From positions 1 to 64,000 of the forward strand of contig JANXBZ010000011.1 of assembly GCA_025060475.1 (NCBI GenBank): DNA of 64,000 nt. The letters are read 5' to 3'. The position numbers were made by a program, and so were the translations under genes. Shown one piece after another: positions 18,402-34,693 of the stretch (positions within the stretch are counted from its first letter, which is position 1; each line of letters begins with the position of its first letter). The notes beneath the pieces are model-generated. The model made no database searches, was not told the DNA's origin, and saw only the letters and a list, made by a program, of their open reading frames with translations. The stretch is from Dictyoglomus sp. Lineage in GTDB: Bacteria; Dictyoglomota; Dictyoglomia; Dictyoglomales; Dictyoglomaceae.

Positions 18402-18430
18402 TTGACACAGCAAATTTTTCTTTTTATACT
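18402..18430 (+). promoter_or_regulatory. Promoter of the purine operon
   Basis: A perfect TTGACA (18402-18407), 17-base spacer and TATACT (18425-18430). Transcription should start near 18437, right at the guanine aptamer. Confidence 0.88.
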
Positions 18431-18438
18431 ATAATTGT

Positions 18439-18505
18439 CTCGTATAGTCCCAAGGATAAGGCTTGGGAGTTTCTACCAGGCAACCGTAAATTGCCTGACT
18501 ACGAG
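18439..18505 (+). promoter_or_regulatory. Guanine (purine-class) riboswitch aptamer
   Basis: P1 pairs CTCGTA (18439-18444) with TACGAG (18500-18505). P2 pairs CCCAAG (18449-18454) with CTTGGG (18462-18467). P3 pairs AGGCAA (18478-18483) with TTGCCT (18491-18496). The junction TTTCTACC and loop CCGTAAA match the purine riboswitch consensus. The specificity base is C (18499, equivalent to C74), so guanine/hypoxanthine rather than adenine is expected. It lies directly upstream of purB, so it should repress the operon when guanine is plentiful. Confidence 0.95.
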
Positions 18506-18507
18506 TG

Positions 18508-18603
18508 GAAGAGTCCCTTAGGGCTCATTCAGAGTCCAAGCGGGACTGGCAAGACTTGTTAGTCTTGCTACACCGAAGGGATAAAAACCCAGGCGGGTAG
18601 GTT
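18508..18603 (+). promoter_or_regulatory. PRPP-type ykkC riboswitch aptamer (probable)
   Basis: Immediately 3' of the guanine aptamer is a structured stretch that matches features of the ykkC family as I recall them: a CTTAGGG segment (18518-18524), GGGACTGG (18542-18549), a hairpin AAGACTTGTTAGTCTT, then TACACCGAAGGGATAAAA and CCCAGGCGGGTAGG (18588-18601). A guanine aptamer in tandem ahead of purine genes is the known setting of the PRPP-sensing subtype, which switches expression on. The last segment is also the 5' half of the terminator, so ligand binding should prevent termination. Subtype assignment (PRPP rather than ppGpp or guanidine) rests on this context. Confidence 0.78.
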
Positions 18604-18634
18604 CCCTCGTATGAGTCCTACCTTCCTGGGTTTT
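18584..18634 (+). terminator. Riboswitch-controlled terminator of the pur leader
   Basis: AAAACCCAGG (18584-18593) pairs with CCTGGGTTTT (18625-18634), and GGTAGG (18596-18601) pairs with CCTACC (18617-18622). The 15-base loop contains CTCGTA (18606-18611), a copy of the guanine P1 5' strand. The T run is short (four bases). Confidence 0.82.
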
Positions 18635-18657: not shown

Positions 18658-19992
18658 ATGCTAGATAGATATTGCAGAAAGGAATTAAAAGAAATTTGGT
18701 CTGATGAGAATAGATATAGTCTTTGGCTTAAAGTAGAGTTAGCCTTTTTGAAGGCGCGTGCTTTTTATGGAGAGATTCCTACAGAAATAGTAGAAGACAT
18801 AGAAAAAAAAGCAAAATTTTCTGTCGAAGAAATAAGAGAAATAGAAAAAGAAACAAATCATGAAGTAATAGCCTTTTTGAGTAATGTTTCTCAATATGTA
18901 GGGAAAGGCTCTGAATATATCCATCAGGGTCTAACTTCCTCAGATATTATGGATACAGCTTTTTCCTTACAAATTCTCTCTTCCTTAAGTTATATTGAAC
19001 AAGATATTCTAATTCTTTTAGATATTCTAAAAGAGAAAGCATTAGAATATAAAGATCTTCCCATGATTGGAAGAACTCATGGGATGCATGCTGAACCTAT
19101 AACTTTGGGTTTTAAATTTTTAGGTTGGTGGTCAGAATTAGAAAGAGATTTAGAAAGACTTAAAAGAGCAAGAGAAAATATAAGATTTGGTAAATTTTCA
19201 GGAGTTGTAGGAACTTTAGCTCATATAGAACCAAAAGTTGAGGTAAAAGCTTGTGAAATTTTAGGACTTAAACCCGAACCAGTAGCAACCCAAGTTATTC
19301 CTAGAGATAGACATGCAGAAGTTATGTATAGTTTAGCAATGCTTGCTACTACTCTAGAAAGAATTGCTCAAGAAATAAGACATTTGCAGAGAACTGAAGT
19401 AGGTGAATTAGAAGAACCTTTCAGAGAAAAACAAAAAGGATCTTCTGCTATGCCTCATAAGAGGAATCCTATATTATCTGAAAGAATATGTGGTTTGGCA
19501 AGAGTAATAAGAGGGTATTTAATAACTGCCTTAGAAAATATTCCCCTCTGGCATGAAAGAGATATAAGTCATTCTTCTGCGGAAAGAGTTATTTTCCCTG
19601 ATGCTACTTCTTTATTAGATTATCTTTTAAATCTTATGATTAATATTATAAAGGATCTAAAGATTAATAAAGAAAAAATATGGAAAAATTTAGAAATGAA
19701 CCAAGGAGTGTTTTATTCACAAAATCTTTTAATTGCCTTAACAGAAAAAGGGATTCCAAGAGACATTGCATATTCTTGGATTCAAGAAGATTCCTTTAGA
19801 TCAATGAATGATAATATTTCTTTTAAAGAGGTAGTATTAAAAGATGAGAGAATAATAAATAAATTATCTAAGGAAGAAATAGAAAAATGTTTCTCTTTAG
19901 ATATTTTTTTAAAGAATATAGACATAATTTATAATAGAGTTTGGAATACCAAAAGATTGGAGGAAGAAAATCTTGGGGAAATGGTGGGTTAA
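18658..19992 (+). CDS. purB: Adenylosuccinate lyase
   Basis: A 444-residue fumarase/aspartase-superfamily lyase. It acts twice in purine synthesis, on SAICAR and on adenylosuccinate. The family signature GSSAMPHKRNP is near 261-271, GRTHGMHAEPITLG near 138-151, and TSSDIMDTA near 95-103. First gene of the pur operon, with GGGGTG (18647-18652) before its ATG. Its 3' end overlaps purS by 20 bases, and the purS ribosome-binding site lies inside it. Confidence 0.96.
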   Translation: MLDRYCRKELKEIWSDENRYSLWLKVELAFLKARAFYGEIPTEIVEDIEKKAKFSVEEIREIEKETNHEVIAFLSNVSQYVGKGSEYIHQGLTSSDIMDTAFSLQILSSLSYIEQDILILLDILKEKALEYKDLPMIGRTHGMHAEPITLGFKFLGWWSELERDLERLKRARENIRFGKFSGVVGTLAHIEPKVEVKACEILGLKPEPVATQVIPRDRHAEVMYSLAMLATTLERIAQEIRHLQRTEVGELEEPFREKQKGSSAMPHKRNPILSERICGLARVIRGYLITALENIPLWHERDISHSSAERVIFPDATSLLDYLLNLMINIIKDLKINKEKIWKNLEMNQGVFYSQNLLIALTEKGIPRDIAYSWIQEDSFRSMNDNISFKEVVLKDERIINKLSKEEIEKCFSLDIFLKNIDIIYNRVWNTKRLEEENLGEMVG

Positions 19993-20233
19993 ATTAGAAA
20001 TATTTTTAAAAGAAGGAATCCTAGATCCTCAAGGTAATACTATTAATTCTGCACTTCACTCTCTGGGTTTTGAGGAAGTAGAGGAGGTTCGTATGGGAAA
20101 AATTTTGAAACTTAAGATGGAAGGGGAAACTGAAGAAGAAGTTAGAGATAAAGTAAAAAGAATGAGCGAAATTTTTTTAGCAAATCCTGTAACAGAGAAT
20201 TTTGAGATCAAGGTAGAAAAGATATGCGAGTAG
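19973..20233 (+). CDS. purS: Phosphoribosylformylglycinamidine synthase subunit PurS
   Basis: An 86-residue PurS, the small dimeric bridge that lets PurQ pass ammonia to the short PurL. The core VKLEIFLKEGILDPQGNTI and the following small-subunit fold are typical. The start is TTG, nine bases after GGAGG, within the end of purB. It overlaps purQ by 10 bases. Confidence 0.93.
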   Translation: MGKWWVKLEIFLKEGILDPQGNTINSALHSLGFEEVEEVRMGKILKLKMEGETEEEVRDKVKRMSEIFLANPVTENFEIKVEKICE

Positions 20234-20901
20234 GTATTGTAGTTTTTCCAGGAACAAATTGTGATTATGATACCTTCTGGGCTTTGAAGCTAGCTGGATT
20301 GAACCCTGTTTTTCTATGGCATAAAGAAAAAGACCTTAAAGATGTTTCCGCGGTAATTCTTCCTGGTGGATTTTCTTACGGTGATTACTTAAGAGCCGGA
20401 GCTATCGCAAGATTTTCTCCATTAATTGATAGAATCTTTGAATTTGCAGAAAAAGGTGGTTTAGTTTTGGGAATATGTAATGGTTTTCAGATATTACTGG
20501 AAATGGGGCTTCTACCAGGTGCCATGCTTCCTAATGATACTAATACTTTTATATGTAAACCTGTTTATTTAAAAGTAGAAAATAATGATTCTCCCTTTTT
20601 AAGAAAATATCAAGTAGGCGAAATATTAAAGATGCCTATCGCTCATAAAGAAGGAAGATACTACATCCCTGAAAGAGATCTTTTAGCTTTAGAAAGGGAA
20701 GGACAAGTAGTGTTAAGATATGTGGGACCGAAAGGAGAGTCAGATTTAAAATTTAATCCTAATGGTTCAGTAAATAATATTGCTGGAATTGTAAATAAAA
20801 AAAGAAATGTTATGGGCTTAATGCCTCATCCTGAAAGAGCTGTAGAAAAATTATTGGGTAGTGATTCGGGTTTAAGGTTATTTTTATCCCTTTTAGATTA
20901 G
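20224..20901 (+). CDS. purQ: Phosphoribosylformylglycinamidine synthase, glutaminase subunit
   Basis: A 225-residue class I glutamine amidotransferase that releases ammonia for FGAM synthesis. The nucleophile cysteine is in LGICNGFQILLEMG (about 80-93) and the His/Glu of the triad in MPHPERAVEKL near the end. GTNCDYDTFWALKLAG at the N-terminus is typical of PurQ. It overlaps purS by 10 bases, so translation is coupled. Confidence 0.96.
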   Translation: MRVGIVVFPGTNCDYDTFWALKLAGLNPVFLWHKEKDLKDVSAVILPGGFSYGDYLRAGAIARFSPLIDRIFEFAEKGGLVLGICNGFQILLEMGLLPGAMLPNDTNTFICKPVYLKVENNDSPFLRKYQVGEILKMPIAHKEGRYYIPERDLLALEREGQVVLRYVGPKGESDLKFNPNGSVNNIAGIVNKKRNVMGLMPHPERAVEKLLGSDSGLRLFLSLLD

Positions 20902-20912
20902 GGGGTAATTAC

Positions 20913-23048
20913 ATGGGAATTCATGGATTAAAAGATGAAGAAATTCGACATGCGAGAAAATTATTAGGAAGAGAACCTAATGATATTGAATGGTCCGTGA
21001 TTTCTGTCATTTGGTCGGAACATTGTAGTTATAAACATTCAAGAAAGTATTTAAGAAATTTTTTAACAAAAGCTAATTGGGTAGCTCAAGGTCCAGGAGA
21101 GAATGCAGGAGTAATAGAGTTAGGAGATGGTTACAAACTAGTCTTTAAAGTAGAAAGTCATAATCATCCTTCGGCGGTAGAACCTTTTCAAGGTGCAGCA
21201 ACAGGAGTAGGTGGGATTGTAAGAGATATCTTGGCTTTAGGAGCAAGACCCATCGCACTATTAGATTCTTTAAGATTTGGACCTCAGGATAATTTAAGAA
21301 ATAGATATCTATTTAATGGAGTTATATCTGGAATAAGTTTCTACGGTAATTGTATTGGAGTTCCTGTAGTGGGTGGAGAAATTTTCTTTGAAGAATGTTA
21401 TAGCTCTAATCCTTTAGTAAATGTTATGTGTGTAGGAATAATTCCTCCAGAAGGAAAAATATATAAGGGGAAAGCAGAAGGTAAAGGGAATTTAATATTA
21501 TTAGTAGGAGCAAGAACAGGTAGAGATGGAATTCATGGAGCAAGTTTTGCATCAGAAAAATTAGAAGAAGATATACATTCTCAAAGGCCATCAGTCCAAG
21601 TTGGGGATCCTTTTATGGAAAAACTTCTTATTGAAGCATGTTTAGAGGCTGGATCTTTAGATGGAGTTATTGGAATCCAAGATTTAGGTGCTGCAGGACT
21701 TGTTAGTGCTTTATCAGAATCTGCAAGTAGAGGAAAATCAGGGGTAGTGGTTTATTTGGATAAAGTCCCTCAAAGAGAAAGAAATATGACTCCTGAGGAG
21801 ATTTTAATATCTGAATCTCAAGAAAGAATGATTCTTGTTGTTAAGCCAGAAGAGATTGAAAAAATTAAAAAGGTTTTTCAAAAATGGGATTTAGAGGCAG
21901 AAGTTATTGGAGAGGTAATAGAAGAAGAAAAATTTATTGCTTATTTTAAAGGTGAAAAGATTGTAGATCTACCTATAAGTTTGTTGACAAAAGATTCTTT
22001 AGAGTTTGATCCTATATATAAAATCCCAGAAAAAACTTACATGCCAATTTTACCTAAAAATAATGAAAAGATTGAAAAATTTATTGATAAATTGATACAA
22101 GATATTAAAATTAAAGAATATATTTATCATCAATATGATTATTCTGTCCAGACAAATACTGTGCTTCCTCCTGGAAAAGGAGATTCTGCTGTATTAAGGA
22201 TTAAAAACACAAGAATAGCGATAGCACTAACTATAGATGGAAATGGAAGATACTGCTATCTAGATCCTAAAATGGGAGCTATGTATGCAGTCTCGGAGGC
22301 TTGTAGAAATATACTTTGTGTTGGAGGAAGGCCATTGGCAATAACGGATGGTCTTAACTTTGGAGATCCTGATGATCCTGAAGTTTTCTATCAATTTAGA
22401 GCAGTAGTTTCTGGAATTAATCTTTCATCAAGGGTTTTAGAGATTCCTATAGTTAGTGGTAATGTAAGTTTTTATAATGGTCAAGGAGAAAATAAAGTAT
22501 TTCCTACCCCAATAATTGGAATGGTAGGAATATTAGAAGATATCAGCTATTTAATTACTCCTGATTTCAAAGAGGAAGGAAATTTGATTTATCTTTTAGG
22601 AGACTTAGACTGGTTATCTTTAGAGGGAAGTGAATATGTTAAATACTCTTATAATATTACCGCAGGAAGTCCCCCATATGTGGATCTTACCTGGGAAAAG
22701 AGATTAAAAAATTTTATGGAAGAAATTAGAAAAGAGAGAATAATTCTTTCTGCCCACGATGTGAGTGAAGGTGGGCTTCTAAATACTCTTTTAGAAATGA
22801 GTTTTTGGGGAGAGAAAGGAATAGATATTAAACTTCCAAAAGTTGAGGATTATGAAAGACTTCTTTTTGGAGAAGGGTCAGGTTTAATAATTGTTGAAGT
22901 TTCTAGAGAAAATAAAGATTATTTTACTAAAGAAACAGAAAAATATGGATTAAAAACTTATTTATTAGGAAGAGTAGTAAAAGATATTTTTAAGATTGAG
23001 CCTTATATTGATTATCCCCTTAAAAAAATATTAGAAAGAGGGAAATAA
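20913..23048 (+). CDS. purL: Phosphoribosylformylglycinamidine synthase subunit PurL (short type)
   Basis: A 711-residue PurL of the short type that needs separate PurS and PurQ, both encoded just upstream. It makes FGAM from FGAR and ATP. Two tandem AIR synthase-like halves are visible. Signature segments include WSEHCSYKHSRKYL near the N-terminus, KVESHNHPSAVEPFQGAATG, and IQDLGAAGLVSALSE in the first half. The Gly-rich HDVSEGGLLNTLLEMSFWG lies in the second half. The ATG follows GGGGGTAA with normal spacing. Confidence 0.96.
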   Translation: MGIHGLKDEEIRHARKLLGREPNDIEWSVISVIWSEHCSYKHSRKYLRNFLTKANWVAQGPGENAGVIELGDGYKLVFKVESHNHPSAVEPFQGAATGVGGIVRDILALGARPIALLDSLRFGPQDNLRNRYLFNGVISGISFYGNCIGVPVVGGEIFFEECYSSNPLVNVMCVGIIPPEGKIYKGKAEGKGNLILLVGARTGRDGIHGASFASEKLEEDIHSQRPSVQVGDPFMEKLLIEACLEAGSLDGVIGIQDLGAAGLVSALSESASRGKSGVVVYLDKVPQRERNMTPEEILISESQERMILVVKPEEIEKIKKVFQKWDLEAEVIGEVIEEEKFIAYFKGEKIVDLPISLLTKDSLEFDPIYKIPEKTYMPILPKNNEKIEKFIDKLIQDIKIKEYIYHQYDYSVQTNTVLPPGKGDSAVLRIKNTRIAIALTIDGNGRYCYLDPKMGAMYAVSEACRNILCVGGRPLAITDGLNFGDPDDPEVFYQFRAVVSGINLSSRVLEIPIVSGNVSFYNGQGENKVFPTPIIGMVGILEDISYLITPDFKEEGNLIYLLGDLDWLSLEGSEYVKYSYNITAGSPPYVDLTWEKRLKNFMEEIRKERIILSAHDVSEGGLLNTLLEMSFWGEKGIDIKLPKVEDYERLLFGEGSGLIIVEVSRENKDYFTKETEKYGLKTYLLGRVVKDIFKIEPYIDYPLKKILERGK

Positions 23049-23050
23049 TA

Positions 23051-24445
23051 ATGAGAGATAGATTTAAAGAAGAGTGTGGTATTGTAGGGGTTATAGCTCC
23101 AAATAAAAGTGATTATGCTAGTTTTTTAGTTTATCAGGGTTTATTTAATTTACAACATCGAGGACAAGAAAGCGTAGGAATTGTAAGTTTTAAAGGTTCA
23201 GAACTGATGTATCATAAAGACTTTGGTTTAGTAAATAATGTTTTTAATGAAGAGATAATTAAAAAATTAAAAGGAAGAATTGCCATAGGACATGTAAGAT
23301 ATTCCACTTCTGGTAAGAATAATCCTAATAATATTCAACCTTTAATCGTAAATTTTCCTAAATTTGGTTTTCTAGCTTTAGCCCATAATGGTCATATTTC
23401 TAATGCTAATTCTTTAAGAAAAAAACTTGAAGAAGAAGGAGCTATTTTCCAAAGTACTTCTGATACCGAAGTAATTATTCATCTTCTTGCTCGTTCTTCT
23501 AAAATTACTTTAGAGGAAAAACTTAGAGATGCTTTAGACAAAATAAACGGAAGTTATTCTTTGATAATAGGAACTAGTAAAGGAGTCTGGGCTATAAAAG
23601 ATCCCTATGGTTTTAGACCTCTTTTTATGGCAAAACTTAGGGATGGAGCAATAATATTTGCATCAGAAACTTGTGCCTTTAAACACCTTCAAGTGATAGA
23701 GATAAAAGAATTAGATAGAGGAGAGATGTTTTTTGTAGATTTAGAAGGAAATATTATAGAAAAAGTTTATAAAAAGAAAGAATCAAGATTTTGTCTATTT
23801 GAATTTATATATTTCTCACGACCTGATAGTTTGTATAATAATAAAACAGTCTATAATTATAGAAGAAATATGGGAAGAGTTTTAGCAAGAGAATCTTATG
23901 TTCCTGCAGATTTAGTTATTCCTGTTCCTGACTCAGGAATACCTGCAGCTATCGGATTTAGTGAATATAGCAAGATACCTTTAGAAATGGCTTTAGTAAG
24001 AAGTCACTATATAGGAAGAACTTTTATTCAGCCCAAGCAAAAAGAAAGGGAAGAAGCAGTAAGGATGAAAATTCTCTTAATAGGAGATATTATTAAAAAT
24101 AAAAGGATAATATTAGTTGATGATTCCTTGGTTAGAGGTACTACTGCGAAAAGATTAGCAGAAATGTTTAGAAGAGAGGGAGCTTTAGAAGTTCATCTCA
24201 GACTTTCATCTCCTCCTATAGTTTCTCCATGTCATTATGGGGTAGACATTCCTAGTTCAAAGGAATTAGTAAGTCATTACTATACTCCAGAAGAGATAGC
24301 AAGACTTTTAGGCTTTGATTCTGTAGCTTTTTTAAGTCTTGAAGGATTAGTAAGTATTTTACCTGATAAAGGATATTGTGGAGAATGTTTTGGAAGGAAA
24401 GTGGTGAAAAGGAAAATATGCCTAAAAGAGTTACATACAGTTTAG
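23051..24445 (+). CDS. purF: Amidophosphoribosyltransferase
   Basis: A 464-residue PurF, the committed step of purine synthesis (PRPP plus glutamine to phosphoribosylamine). MRDRFKEE before CGIVGV looks like a short propeptide removed to expose the Cys9 nucleophile. The PRPP loop is IILVDDSLVRGTTAKR (about 355-370). Cysteines in RFCLFEFIYF, SPCHYGVD and YCGECFGRK match the ligands of the structural [4Fe-4S] cluster found in B. subtilis PurF. Because it consumes PRPP, its position under a PRPP-responsive leader makes sense. Its end overlaps purM by 28 bases. Confidence 0.95.
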   Translation: MRDRFKEECGIVGVIAPNKSDYASFLVYQGLFNLQHRGQESVGIVSFKGSELMYHKDFGLVNNVFNEEIIKKLKGRIAIGHVRYSTSGKNNPNNIQPLIVNFPKFGFLALAHNGHISNANSLRKKLEEEGAIFQSTSDTEVIIHLLARSSKITLEEKLRDALDKINGSYSLIIGTSKGVWAIKDPYGFRPLFMAKLRDGAIIFASETCAFKHLQVIEIKELDRGEMFFVDLEGNIIEKVYKKKESRFCLFEFIYFSRPDSLYNNKTVYNYRRNMGRVLARESYVPADLVIPVPDSGIPAAIGFSEYSKIPLEMALVRSHYIGRTFIQPKQKEREEAVRMKILLIGDIIKNKRIILVDDSLVRGTTAKRLAEMFRREGALEVHLRLSSPPIVSPCHYGVDIPSSKELVSHYYTPEEIARLLGFDSVAFLSLEGLVSILPDKGYCGECFGRKVVKRKICLKELHTV

Positions 24446-25443
24446 CTGGTGTGCATATAAGCAAAGTTGAAAAGAGCCTTTCCTGTTTAAAGCCCTACTT
24501 TGAGTCTACTTATACTTCAAATGTTATTCCCTTTTGGAATGGCTTTTCTTCAGTGTTAAGAATTGATTGGAAGAATTATAAAAATCCACTCATTCTTCTA
24601 ACTACAGATGGGGTTGGAACTAAATTAAAGCTTGCTCTTAGAAAGAAAAGATATGATACCATAGGTCAAGATTTAGTAGCCATGAATATAAATGATCTTT
24701 TAACATGTGGAGCAAAACCTATCGCCTTTTTAGATTATTTTGCTACTGGAAGAATTGACGAGGAAGTTTATCAAAATATTTTAATAAGTATTTCAAAGGC
24801 ATGTAAGGCAGTGGAGTGTAGTTTTGTAGGAGGAGAAACAGCGGAATTACCAGGAATATACAAAGGAAAGGACTTAGATCTTGCTGGTTTTGCGATAGGA
24901 ATTGTGGAAGAAGAGGATTTATTGCCTAAGTTAAATGATATAAATGAAGATTGCAAATTGATTGGAATCTCTTCTTCAGGGTTACATAGTAATGGATTTT
25001 CTCTTTTAAGATATATTATGAAAAAGAAAAAATTGTCATGGAAAAATAAGATAGGAGAAATAACTATAGAGGAAGAAGTTTTAAAACCAACAAAACTTTA
25101 TTCTCCAATTATTCTTCCTTTATTAAAAATATTCAAAAATTCTATTAAAGGAATAGCTCACATAACAGGAGGGGGAATACCAGGAAATCTCCCAAGAATT
25201 CTTCCAAAAGGATATGGCGCATTGATTGATAGTTCTTCTTGGGAAATACCGGAGATTTTTTTATGGATTATTAAAAAAGGAAATTTATCTAAGAAAGAAG
25301 CCTTTAAAGTTTTTAATATGGGAATTGGACTTATTTTAGTTGTAAAAGATGAAAAGGAAATTATAAAATCTTTAAAAAATCAAGGAGAGAATGCTTTTTT
25401 AATTGGCAAAGTTGAAAAATGGGAGGGAATTAAAATTATTTGA
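24418..25443 (+). CDS. purM: Phosphoribosylformylglycinamidine cyclo-ligase (AIR synthetase)
   Basis: A 341-residue AIR synthetase that closes the imidazole ring. I start it at ATG 24418 because the residues after it (MPKRVTYSLAGVHISK) align with the usual N-terminus, while 14 further in-frame residues upstream do not. LLTTDGVGTKLKLA is near 57-70, FVGGETAELPG near 139-149, and HITGGGIPGNLPRIL near 245-259. It overlaps purF by 28 bases and purN by four. Confidence 0.94.
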   Translation: MPKRVTYSLAGVHISKVEKSLSCLKPYFESTYTSNVIPFWNGFSSVLRIDWKNYKNPLILLTTDGVGTKLKLALRKKRYDTIGQDLVAMNINDLLTCGAKPIAFLDYFATGRIDEEVYQNILISISKACKAVECSFVGGETAELPGIYKGKDLDLAGFAIGIVEEEDLLPKLNDINEDCKLIGISSSGLHSNGFSLLRYIMKKKKLSWKNKIGEITIEEEVLKPTKLYSPIILPLLKIFKNSIKGIAHITGGGIPGNLPRILPKGYGALIDSSSWEIPEIFLWIIKKGNLSKKEAFKVFNMGIGLILVVKDEKEIIKSLKNQGENAFLIGKVEKWEGIKII

Positions 25444-26087
25444 AAAAAAGATTAGGAGTTCTTGTATCAGGAAGAGGTACTAATCTTCAAGCTTTAATAA
25501 ATGCAGGAAAGAAGAAAGAATATCCGGCAGAAGTAGTAGTAGTTATTAGTGATAATCCTAATGCTTATGCTATAACTCGTGCAAAAAAAGCCCAAATTCC
25601 AGTCTATGTAGTCCAAAGAGAAGAATATAAAACCAAAAGAGAATATGAAGAGAAAATTAAGGAAATTCTTATATCTTATAGAGTAGATCTTGTTGTTCTC
25701 GCAGGATATATGAGAATTGTAGGTAAAGTTCTTCTTTCTGCTTTTCCTATGAAGATAATAAATATTCATCCTTCTCTTCTCCCATCCTTTCCTGGTCTTA
25801 ATGCTCAAAAGCAAGCATTGGAATATGGGGTGAAATTTTCAGGATGTACAGTTCATTTTGTAGATGAAGGAATAGACACAGGGCCAATTATTGGCCAAAA
25901 AGTTGTTCCTGTCTATGACTATGATACTCCTGAATCTTTAGCGGAAAGAATATTAAAAAAAGAACATAAACTTTTAGTAGAAGTTATTAGGAAATTACTT
26001 ACTGAAGAATATAAATTAGAAGGAAGAAGAGTGATTTTTATTAGAAAAAAGGAGGATGAAAAACATGAAGGTTCTTGTGGTAGGTAA
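25440..26087 (+). CDS. purN: Phosphoribosylglycinamide formyltransferase
   Basis: A 215-residue GAR transformylase using 10-formyl-THF. The N-terminal LGVLVSGRGTNLQALI is typical, INIHPSLLPSFPGL carries the catalytic Asn/His pair (near 109-122), and DEGIDTGPIIGQKVVPV carries the catalytic Asp (near 147-163). The start is TTG overlapping the purM stop (TTGA), behind GGGAGGG. It overlaps purD by 23 bases. Confidence 0.94.
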   Translation: MKKRLGVLVSGRGTNLQALINAGKKKEYPAEVVVVISDNPNAYAITRAKKAQIPVYVVQREEYKTKREYEEKIKEILISYRVDLVVLAGYMRIVGKVLLSAFPMKIINIHPSLLPSFPGLNAQKQALEYGVKFSGCTVHFVDEGIDTGPIIGQKVVPVYDYDTPESLAERILKKEHKLLVEVIRKLLTEEYKLEGRRVIFIRKKEDEKHEGSCGR

Positions 26088-27303
26088 TGGAGCACGGGAA
26101 CATGCTATAGTTTGGAAATTAAAACAAGATAAAAACGTTAGTGAAATTTATGCTCTTCCAGGAAATGCAGGAATTTCTCAAATTGCAAAATGTATTGAAG
26201 AGAGAGTAGATAATGTCCAAAAAATAGTAGATATTGCTTTAGAGTACAAAGTTGATTGGACTGTGGTAGGACCAGAATTGCCTCTTTCTCTTGGTATTGT
26301 AGATGCTTTTGAAGATAAGGGTTTGAAAATTTGGGGTCCTAATAAAGAAGGAGCTAAGTTAGAATATAGTAAGGCTTTTGCTAAAGAAATTATGAAAGAA
26401 TCTAAAATTCCCACAGCAGAATTTAAAATATTTGATTCCTTTTCTTCTGCGGAACAATTTATCAAAAAGGCTTCATATCCTTTGGTAATTAAAGCTGATG
26501 GACTTTGTGGAGGAAAAGGGGTTAAAATTGCGGAATCTTATGAATCCGCTATTAGAATTCTGAGTGAATATATGATTGATAAGATTTTTGGAACTGCAGG
26601 AGAAAAAGTAGTTATTGAAGAATATCTTGAAGGAAAGGAGTTTTCATTAATAGCAATAATTAAAAATGGGAATTTTTATTTTTTACCGCCTGCTCAAGAC
26701 TATAAAAGAGTAGGGGAGGGAAATACAGGAGAAAATACAGGAGGAATGGGGGCTTTTTCTCCTATTCCGTGGATTAATGAGGAAATATTAAAGAAATGTG
26801 AAAAAAATATTTTTTATCCTTTATTGGATGAATTAGACAAAAGAAAAATAAATTACCAAGGCTTTTTATATGCAGGTCTAATCTTGGTTAAAAATGATCC
26901 GTATGTTTTGGAATTTAATGTTCGTTTAGGTGATCCTGAGGCACAAGTAATTTTACCTCTTTTAGATTTTAATTTTACTGATATTCTTTATAATACTAGT
27001 TTTCCTTGGTCTTTAGATAAAAAAGCATTATGTGTCGTATTAGCGTCTAAGGGATATCCTGGTAATTATGAGATTGGAAAAGAAATAGATTTTAAGAACA
27101 TAGATTTTAAAGATTTGTATATATTCCATGCAGGGACAATTAAAAAGAACGGAAAAATAGTAACCTCTTCTGGAAGAGTTCTTTCTGTTACAGCATGGGG
27201 AGAAGACTTCAAAGAGATTCGAGAAAGGGTATATACTGCAATAGAGAGTATACATTTTGAAAATAAATATTACAGAAGAGATATCGGGGTTGAGCTTATC
27301 TAA
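26065..27303 (+). CDS. purD: Phosphoribosylamine--glycine ligase
   Basis: A 412-residue ATP-grasp GAR synthetase. I chose ATG 26065 over ATG 26056 because the AGGAGG at 26050-26055 touches the upstream one but sits nine bases from this one. VLVVGNGAREHAIVWKL at the N-terminus and GENTGGMGAFSP near 220-231 are family signatures, and VLEFNVRLGDPEAQVIL near 290-306 completes the ATP-grasp site. Last gene of the pur operon; purC, purE and purH are not in the window. Confidence 0.95.
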   Translation: MKVLVVGNGAREHAIVWKLKQDKNVSEIYALPGNAGISQIAKCIEERVDNVQKIVDIALEYKVDWTVVGPELPLSLGIVDAFEDKGLKIWGPNKEGAKLEYSKAFAKEIMKESKIPTAEFKIFDSFSSAEQFIKKASYPLVIKADGLCGGKGVKIAESYESAIRILSEYMIDKIFGTAGEKVVIEEYLEGKEFSLIAIIKNGNFYFLPPAQDYKRVGEGNTGENTGGMGAFSPIPWINEEILKKCEKNIFYPLLDELDKRKINYQGFLYAGLILVKNDPYVLEFNVRLGDPEAQVILPLLDFNFTDILYNTSFPWSLDKKALCVVLASKGYPGNYEIGKEIDFKNIDFKDLYIFHAGTIKKNGKIVTSSGRVLSVTAWGEDFKEIRERVYTAIESIHFENKYYRRDIGVELI

Positions 27304-33576: not shown

Positions 33577-34693
33577 ATGGCAATATCTTCTATAGAATTA
33601 GAGAATACATATCAAGAGTTAATTTCAAAATTTGAACAACTAAGAGGTTATCTTTGATATAGACAAAGAGGAAGAAGAACTGAAAATCTTAGAAGACAAA
33701 ATCTCCAAAGAAAGTTGGCACGATCCAGAAAAGCTTAAAGATTTGACAACAAAATATAAAAGACTTAAAGAAAGATTAGAAAAGTGGTACTTTTTAGAAA
33801 AAGAAATAAAAGAACTCGCAGAATGGAAAGAACTTATAGAAGAAGGAGAAGAATATAAAAATGAATTTTCTATCAGATTAAAAAATTGTGAGAAATTACT
33901 TAAATCTTTTGAACTAGATTCTATCCTTCAAGATCCTCATGATAAAGTAAATGCTATCTTATCCCTTCATGCGGGAACAGGAGGTACCGATGCTCAGGAC
34001 TGGACTGAAATTCTTTTAAGAATGTATATAAGATGGGCAGAGAAGAAAAATTTTAAGGTTAAAATTATTGATATATCTCAGGGAGAAGAAGCAGGGATAA
34101 AGAGTGCTACTTTATTGATTGAGGGTGAAAATGCATATGGTTATTTAAAAAGTGAGAAAGGAGTGCATAGATTAGTAAGAATTTCTCCTTTTGACGCAAA
34201 TCATAGAAGGCATACATCTTTTGCTCTAGTAGAAGTAATACCAGAACTTCCTGATAGCAAAGTTGAAATAAAACCAGAAGACTTGAAAATAGAAACTTTC
34301 AGAGCAGGTGGGGCAGGGGGGCAACATGTGAATAAAGTAGAGTCTGCAGTAAGAATTACTCATATTCCCACAGGAATAGTTGTTCAATGCCAAAATGAAA
34401 GGTCTCAACATGCTAATAAGGAAATGGCTTTGAGAATTTTAAAGGCGAGATTAGAAGAATTAGAAGAAAAGAAAAGAAGGGAACAAATACAAGCTTTAAA
34501 AGGAGAAGTTCAGGAGATAAGCTGGGGAAATCAGATAAGATCTTATGTCTTTCATCCATATACTCTGGTGAAGGATCATAGAACAGGATTGGAAATTGGT
34601 AATATTCAAGGGGTAATTGATGGAGACTTAGATCCCTTCATTGAAGCTTATCTTTATAAAGAATGGCAGAAGTTAAAAGGGTTTTCTAAATAA
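33577..34693 (+). CDS. prfB: Peptide chain release factor 2, made by +1 programmed frameshift
   Basis: RF2 of about 371 residues, recognising UGA and UAA. The ATG at 33577 follows AAGGAGG and opens a 26-codon frame that ends in TGA at 33655-33657. The rest of RF2 continues from base 33656 in the +1 frame with no gap in homology. The codon-recognition tripeptide SPF is at 203-205 and the catalytic GGQ at 247-249 (GGQHVNKVESAVRITH). The frameshift lets RF2 regulate itself: scarce RF2 means slow termination at TGA and more shifting. Confidence 0.96.
33643..33658 (+). promoter_or_regulatory. Programmed +1 frameshift site in prfB
   Basis: The recoding site reads AGA GGT TAT CTT TGA T. The usual form is AGG GGG TAT CTT TGA C. 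The slippery CTT and the TGA are intact, the SD-like element is reduced to AGAGGT, and the base after TGA is T instead of C. Confidence 0.93.

Follow-up and report, generated by a model that had tools for sequence, protein, structure and literature searches.

A probable tandem guanine–PRPP riboswitch ahead of the purine genes of Dictyoglomota, with tandem relatives in Chloroflexota

Eight purine-synthesis genes of a Dictyoglomus genome are preceded by a leader (18439-18634) in which a guanine aptamer, an adjoining RNA of the ykkC fold and a single terminator follow one another 5' to 3'. I consider it highly probable (roughly 0.9) that this leader acts as a tandem guanine–PRPP riboswitch controlling transcription of purB-S-Q-L-F-M-N-D. 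The kind of gate is known (guanine–PRPP IMPLY; Sherlock 2018); new is its phylum, Dictyoglomota, for which it is unreported as far as could be checked. The window is the whole stretch of DNA analysed, 64,000 nucleotides long, and all positions refer to it.

Leader architecture and the genes that follow it

The features are as follows, all on the + strand:
18402-18430: sigma-70-like promoter, TTGACA-17-TATACT (consensus scan, 11/12 matches), adjoining the 5' side of the aptamer
18439-18505: guanine aptamer (RF00167 score, helices, residues)
18439-18444/18500-18505, 18448-18454/18462-18468 and 18478-18483/18491-18496: guanine aptamer helices P1, P2 and P3
18445, 18470, 18474 and 18499: guanine aptamer key bases U22, U47, U51 and C74
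18507-18605: putative PRPP-type ykkC (subtype 2b) aptamer (RF00442 score; residue map against PMC6031431)
18507-18510/18602-18605, 18512-18517/18542-18547, 18549-18556/18561-18568 and 18578-18580/18588-18590: its helices P0, P1, P2 and P3
18510, 18511, 18540, 18541, 18570-18573, 18592 and 18599-18601: its mapped bases A5, G6, G48, C49, A74-C77, G96 and A103-G105
18584-18634: single intrinsic terminator (folding, pair counts), its 5' arm (18584-18601) sharing bases with the PRPP aptamer's 3' half
18606-18611: CUCGUA, in the terminator loop, repeating the 5' strand of guanine P1 (pairing; conserved in 4/4 Dictyoglomota leaders)
18658-19992: purB, adenylosuccinate lyase (TIGR00928, 518 bits)
19973-27303: purS, purQ, purL, purF, purM, purN and purD (NCBIfam equivalogs over cut-off)

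The span that the initial annotation had given for a tandem leader proved exact, as both aptamers and the terminator were recovered within 18439-18634, and a leader of 202 bases folded with a z-score of -7.8 relative to shuffles. Its description of a canonical guanine aptamer with C at the specificity site was borne out as well: searching the whole window gave an RF00167 (Purine) match at 18420-18521 with 88.7 bits (E 8.2e-15) against a curated cut-off of 37 bits, the sole such match in a genome-wide search, and the specificity base C74 is found at 18499. Transferring the xpt numbering places the guanine-contact bases U22, U51 and C74 at 18445, 18474 and 18499. The J1/2 base A24 is a G in the window (18447) and an A in three related leaders. 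Given the strong promoter-like site at 18402-18430, the transcript would start just 5' of guanine P1.

The guanine P1 end (18505) and the start of the P1 helix of the second RNA (18512) are separated by 6 bases, within the 5-7 bases that define the tandem class, and the two RNAs thus directly abut as first described. The eight genes 3' of the leader, purB-S-Q-L-F-M-N-D, are likewise of the purine-synthesis kind found with that class. Calling them a full pur operon was too strong, since purC and purH are located on other contigs. Judging by the spacing 3' of purD and by a separate speD, the transcription unit appears to end at ~27303. Further along the window (33578-34693) lies prfB, encoding release factor 2, in which AAGAGG precedes the CTT TGA that closes a short first frame; the gene carries on in the +1 frame, as in the usual programmed frameshift.

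Class of the second aptamer

The second RNA had been proposed to belong to the ykkC family, with an Rfam search as the check. The fold was recovered, with a full-length match to RF00442 (ykkC/Guanidine-I) at 18506-18597 that was significant (41.2 bits, E 2.8e-6 in the leader search) and the sole one in the genome (E 3.8e-6 genome-wide), but the score fell short of the guanidine-I cut-off of 63 bits, while the Purine match stood well over its own. A significant score under the cut-off is as expected for a variant class, and argues for a variant rather than for guanidine-I; the RNAs of Dictyoglomota as a group scored 36-41 bits. Among Rfam models, no PRPP-specific one was matched by the second aptamer.

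The ligand contacts and two class markers are named in the PRPP aptamer structure paper (PMC6031431): a pyrimidine at position 49 divides subtype 2 from guanidine-I, and G96 divides PRPP from ppGpp aptamers. Residues were located by the spacing given there. Two anchors placed independently, A74-C77 and A103-G105, resulted in one offset (18496) that was gapless over positions 74-105, and the contacts A5, G6, G48, C49, A74-C77, G96 and A103-G105 were all found. The pyrimidine at 49 is C18541, and the G at 96 is G18592, which is G in 4/4 Dictyoglomota leaders. The conserved 5' and 3' tails form the P0 helix characteristic of the PRPP class, GGAA (18507-18510) with UUCC (18602-18605). Among the mapped bases, an A stands at position 95, for which G95 is reported, and a G instead of A at position 101, within the purine tolerance described for this weakly conserved position (PMC6031431). 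On these residues, the second sensor very probably binds PRPP.

Subtypes 2a and 2b are closely alike, and a single G96A change shifts specificity ~40,000-fold, so a ppGpp (subtype 2a) riboswitch, and hence a guanine–ppGpp gate, deserves consideration; with G at position 96 in all four leaders, where subtype 2a has A, C or U or lacks the base, I regard it as very unlikely (PMC6031431). A guanidine-I riboswitch is next to impossible despite the RF00442 match, as the RNA reaches 41 of the 63 bits required, whereas 91 of the 92 genomes with an RF00442 match in a control sample from Cyanobacteriota (the phylum of the Gastranaerophilales record) have one above the cut-off, position 49 is C rather than the A of that class (its A46), and the operon contains no guanidine gene.

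Terminator, extended P0 and the expected logic

A single stem at 18584-18634 serves both aptamers, in line with the one shared terminator first proposed. It comprises 17 pairs (18584-18601/18617-18634) and ends in TTTT, and its 5' arm shares sequence with P3 and with the PRPP aptamer's 3' tail. A stricter terminator scan did not list 18584-18634, probably owing to the long apical loop and an internal mismatch.

The CUCGUA motif in the terminator loop can pair with UACGAG (18500-18505), the 3' strand of guanine P1, adding six pairs that prolong P0 past a one-base bulge. These pairs use the guanine P1 strand, and P1 and the extended P0 are therefore mutually exclusive. For RNAs whose 3' end lies in the terminator loop, the closed-P1 and extended-P0 conformations are predicted to lie at most 2.5 kcal/mol apart at 37°C and at most 1.9 kcal/mol apart at 72°C; at both temperatures, three of the four leaders had the extended P0 as their lowest-energy fold. 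The complete terminator is predicted to be favoured over the extended-P0 state by ~12-16 kcal/mol at 37°C and by ~5-8 kcal/mol at 72°C; with the completed terminator so strongly favoured, the decision must be kinetic.

CUCGUA is invariant in 4/4 leaders, unlike the terminator's 3' arm, which differs among them. Shuffling the tails produced a continuation of P0 of this kind by chance in 250 of 20,000 cases (~1%), and a stricter energy test, a modest control, gave p ~0.02 per sequence, the sequences being related. As the six added pairs are constant across Dictyoglomota, covariation speaks neither for nor against them. Helix pairing was kept between the genera, with 99.4% of cells paired and 7 pairs changed on both sides, these figures coming from four related sequences only.

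In the proposed mechanism, guanine on the first aptamer would lock its P1 helix, and PRPP on the second would stabilise P0, whose 5' half directly follows guanine P1. With PRPP present, P0 and P3 would sequester the terminator's 5' arm, allowing the operon to be read; with neither ligand, P0 and P3 would probably hold the arm as well, again leaving the operon on. Guanine together with little PRPP would leave P1 closed and the arm free, so that the terminator would form and transcription stop. I infer from this the direction of each response and an IMPLY truth table, off solely with guanine and without PRPP, in agreement with the logic first expected. Since the 5' arm overlaps the PRPP aptamer, PRPP binding should block termination, an effect that was measured in other members of the class, including that of B. 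megaterium (PMC5912903). PurF consumes PRPP, and high PRPP would thus induce its own use.

One leader holding two aptamers of opposite sign could alternatively work as two successive independent switches, giving NOT A AND B instead of IMPLY, exactly the distinction drawn in PMC9481103. I consider this very unlikely for the present leader, in which there is a single terminator that overlaps the second aptamer, and in which one strand is common to P1 and the extended P0.

Distribution and comparison with known systems

The source genome, that of a hot-spring bacterium, belongs to Dictyoglomota, which agrees with the unusual and probably thermophilic lineage suspected at the outset: D. turgidum has a preferred growth temperature of 72°C (PMC5167688). 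Seven Dictyoglomota genomes were sampled, and four of the five near-complete ones have the tandem leader ahead of purB; D. thermophilum, D. turgidum and one further relative share both leader and operon with the window. A close relative from the same genus (G005, locus L163) carries a complete purB-to-purD operon without a riboswitch leader, which is most simply a loss, as both genera carry the leader.

Scanning 301 genomes of Chloroflexota (the phylum of the Dehalococcoidia record) returned 25 ykkC-like RNAs. By match coordinates, a Purine aptamer overlaps the 5' end of 11 of these, in at least 10 of the 301 genomes (L175-L180, L184, L186-L188 and L190), and these loci have a shared terminator. 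One group (e.g. L186, L187 and L188) lies upstream of PurL-like proteins and another (L176, L177, L178 and L184) upstream of apparent NCS2 purine permeases, recognised by eye. Also by eye, CCC-G is followed in all of the tandems by a G where G96 would be. Their P0 likewise extends into GAG at the base of guanine P1, and the P1 strand hardly varies across lineages. Four single ykkC RNAs from the same phylum (L170, L172, L173 and L189) scored slightly below the guanidine-I cut-off and lie 5' of apparent phosphoglycerate dehydrogenase (serA) genes; they may represent ppGpp-type RNAs or others of subtype 2.

The RF00442 matches of Cyanobacteriota are nearly all guanidine-I by score. No ykkC match was obtained in other genomes with a PurB relative or in 80 genomes of one further phylum. 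A distant BLAST of plasmids with the PRPP part gave no match, a tandem query matched guanine aptamers alone and no tandem, and scanning viral contigs for the PRPP core found none.

Tandem guanine–PRPP Boolean gates were already known, as had been stated at the outset, and Sherlock 2018 (PMC5912903) reports the class for Firmicutes only. In the literature searched, no paper linked PRPP riboswitches with Dictyoglomus or Chloroflexi, and the alignments published with that study may already contain such rows. The B. megaterium codA tandem described there shares with the Dictyoglomus leader the order of the aptamers, a gap of a few bases, a shared terminator overlapping the PRPP aptamer, and purine genes; it differs in belonging to Firmicutes, while the present leader belongs to Dictyoglomota and lies 5' of purB (PMC5912903).

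The tandem of Thermoanaerobacter mathranii, whose PRPP aptamer structure is 6CK5, agrees in its contact residues and in having a P0 that is predicted to exclude guanine P1; Dictyoglomus departs from it by the A at 95 and the G at 101 (Knappenberger 2018, PMC6031431). The six-pair continuation of P0 is seen in Dictyoglomota from the sequence, and the exclusion of P1 and an extended P0 there fits the P0/P1 model put forward earlier for Thermoanaerobacter (same source). In the B. subtilis yxjA guanine riboswitch, an alternative (central) helix likewise occupies one strand of guanine P1 and competes with the terminator, and this strand exchange was measured; yxjA has no second aptamer, unlike the Dictyoglomus leader (PMC9756952).

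The evidence tips modestly towards the extended P0 of Dictyoglomota being an antiterminator that takes the guanine P1 strand and is near balance at growth temperature, and towards a guanine–PRPP gate that is not confined to Firmicutes, serving purine-operon control in Dictyoglomota and being present in Chloroflexota. Published studies left the mechanism of aptamer competition open, and the Dictyoglomota leaders would be compact, thermostable examples in which this competition is readable from sequence and testable by mutation. A two-input RNA logic gate reported from Firmicutes would thereby gain a wider range that takes in Chloroflexota and a deep thermophilic phylum.
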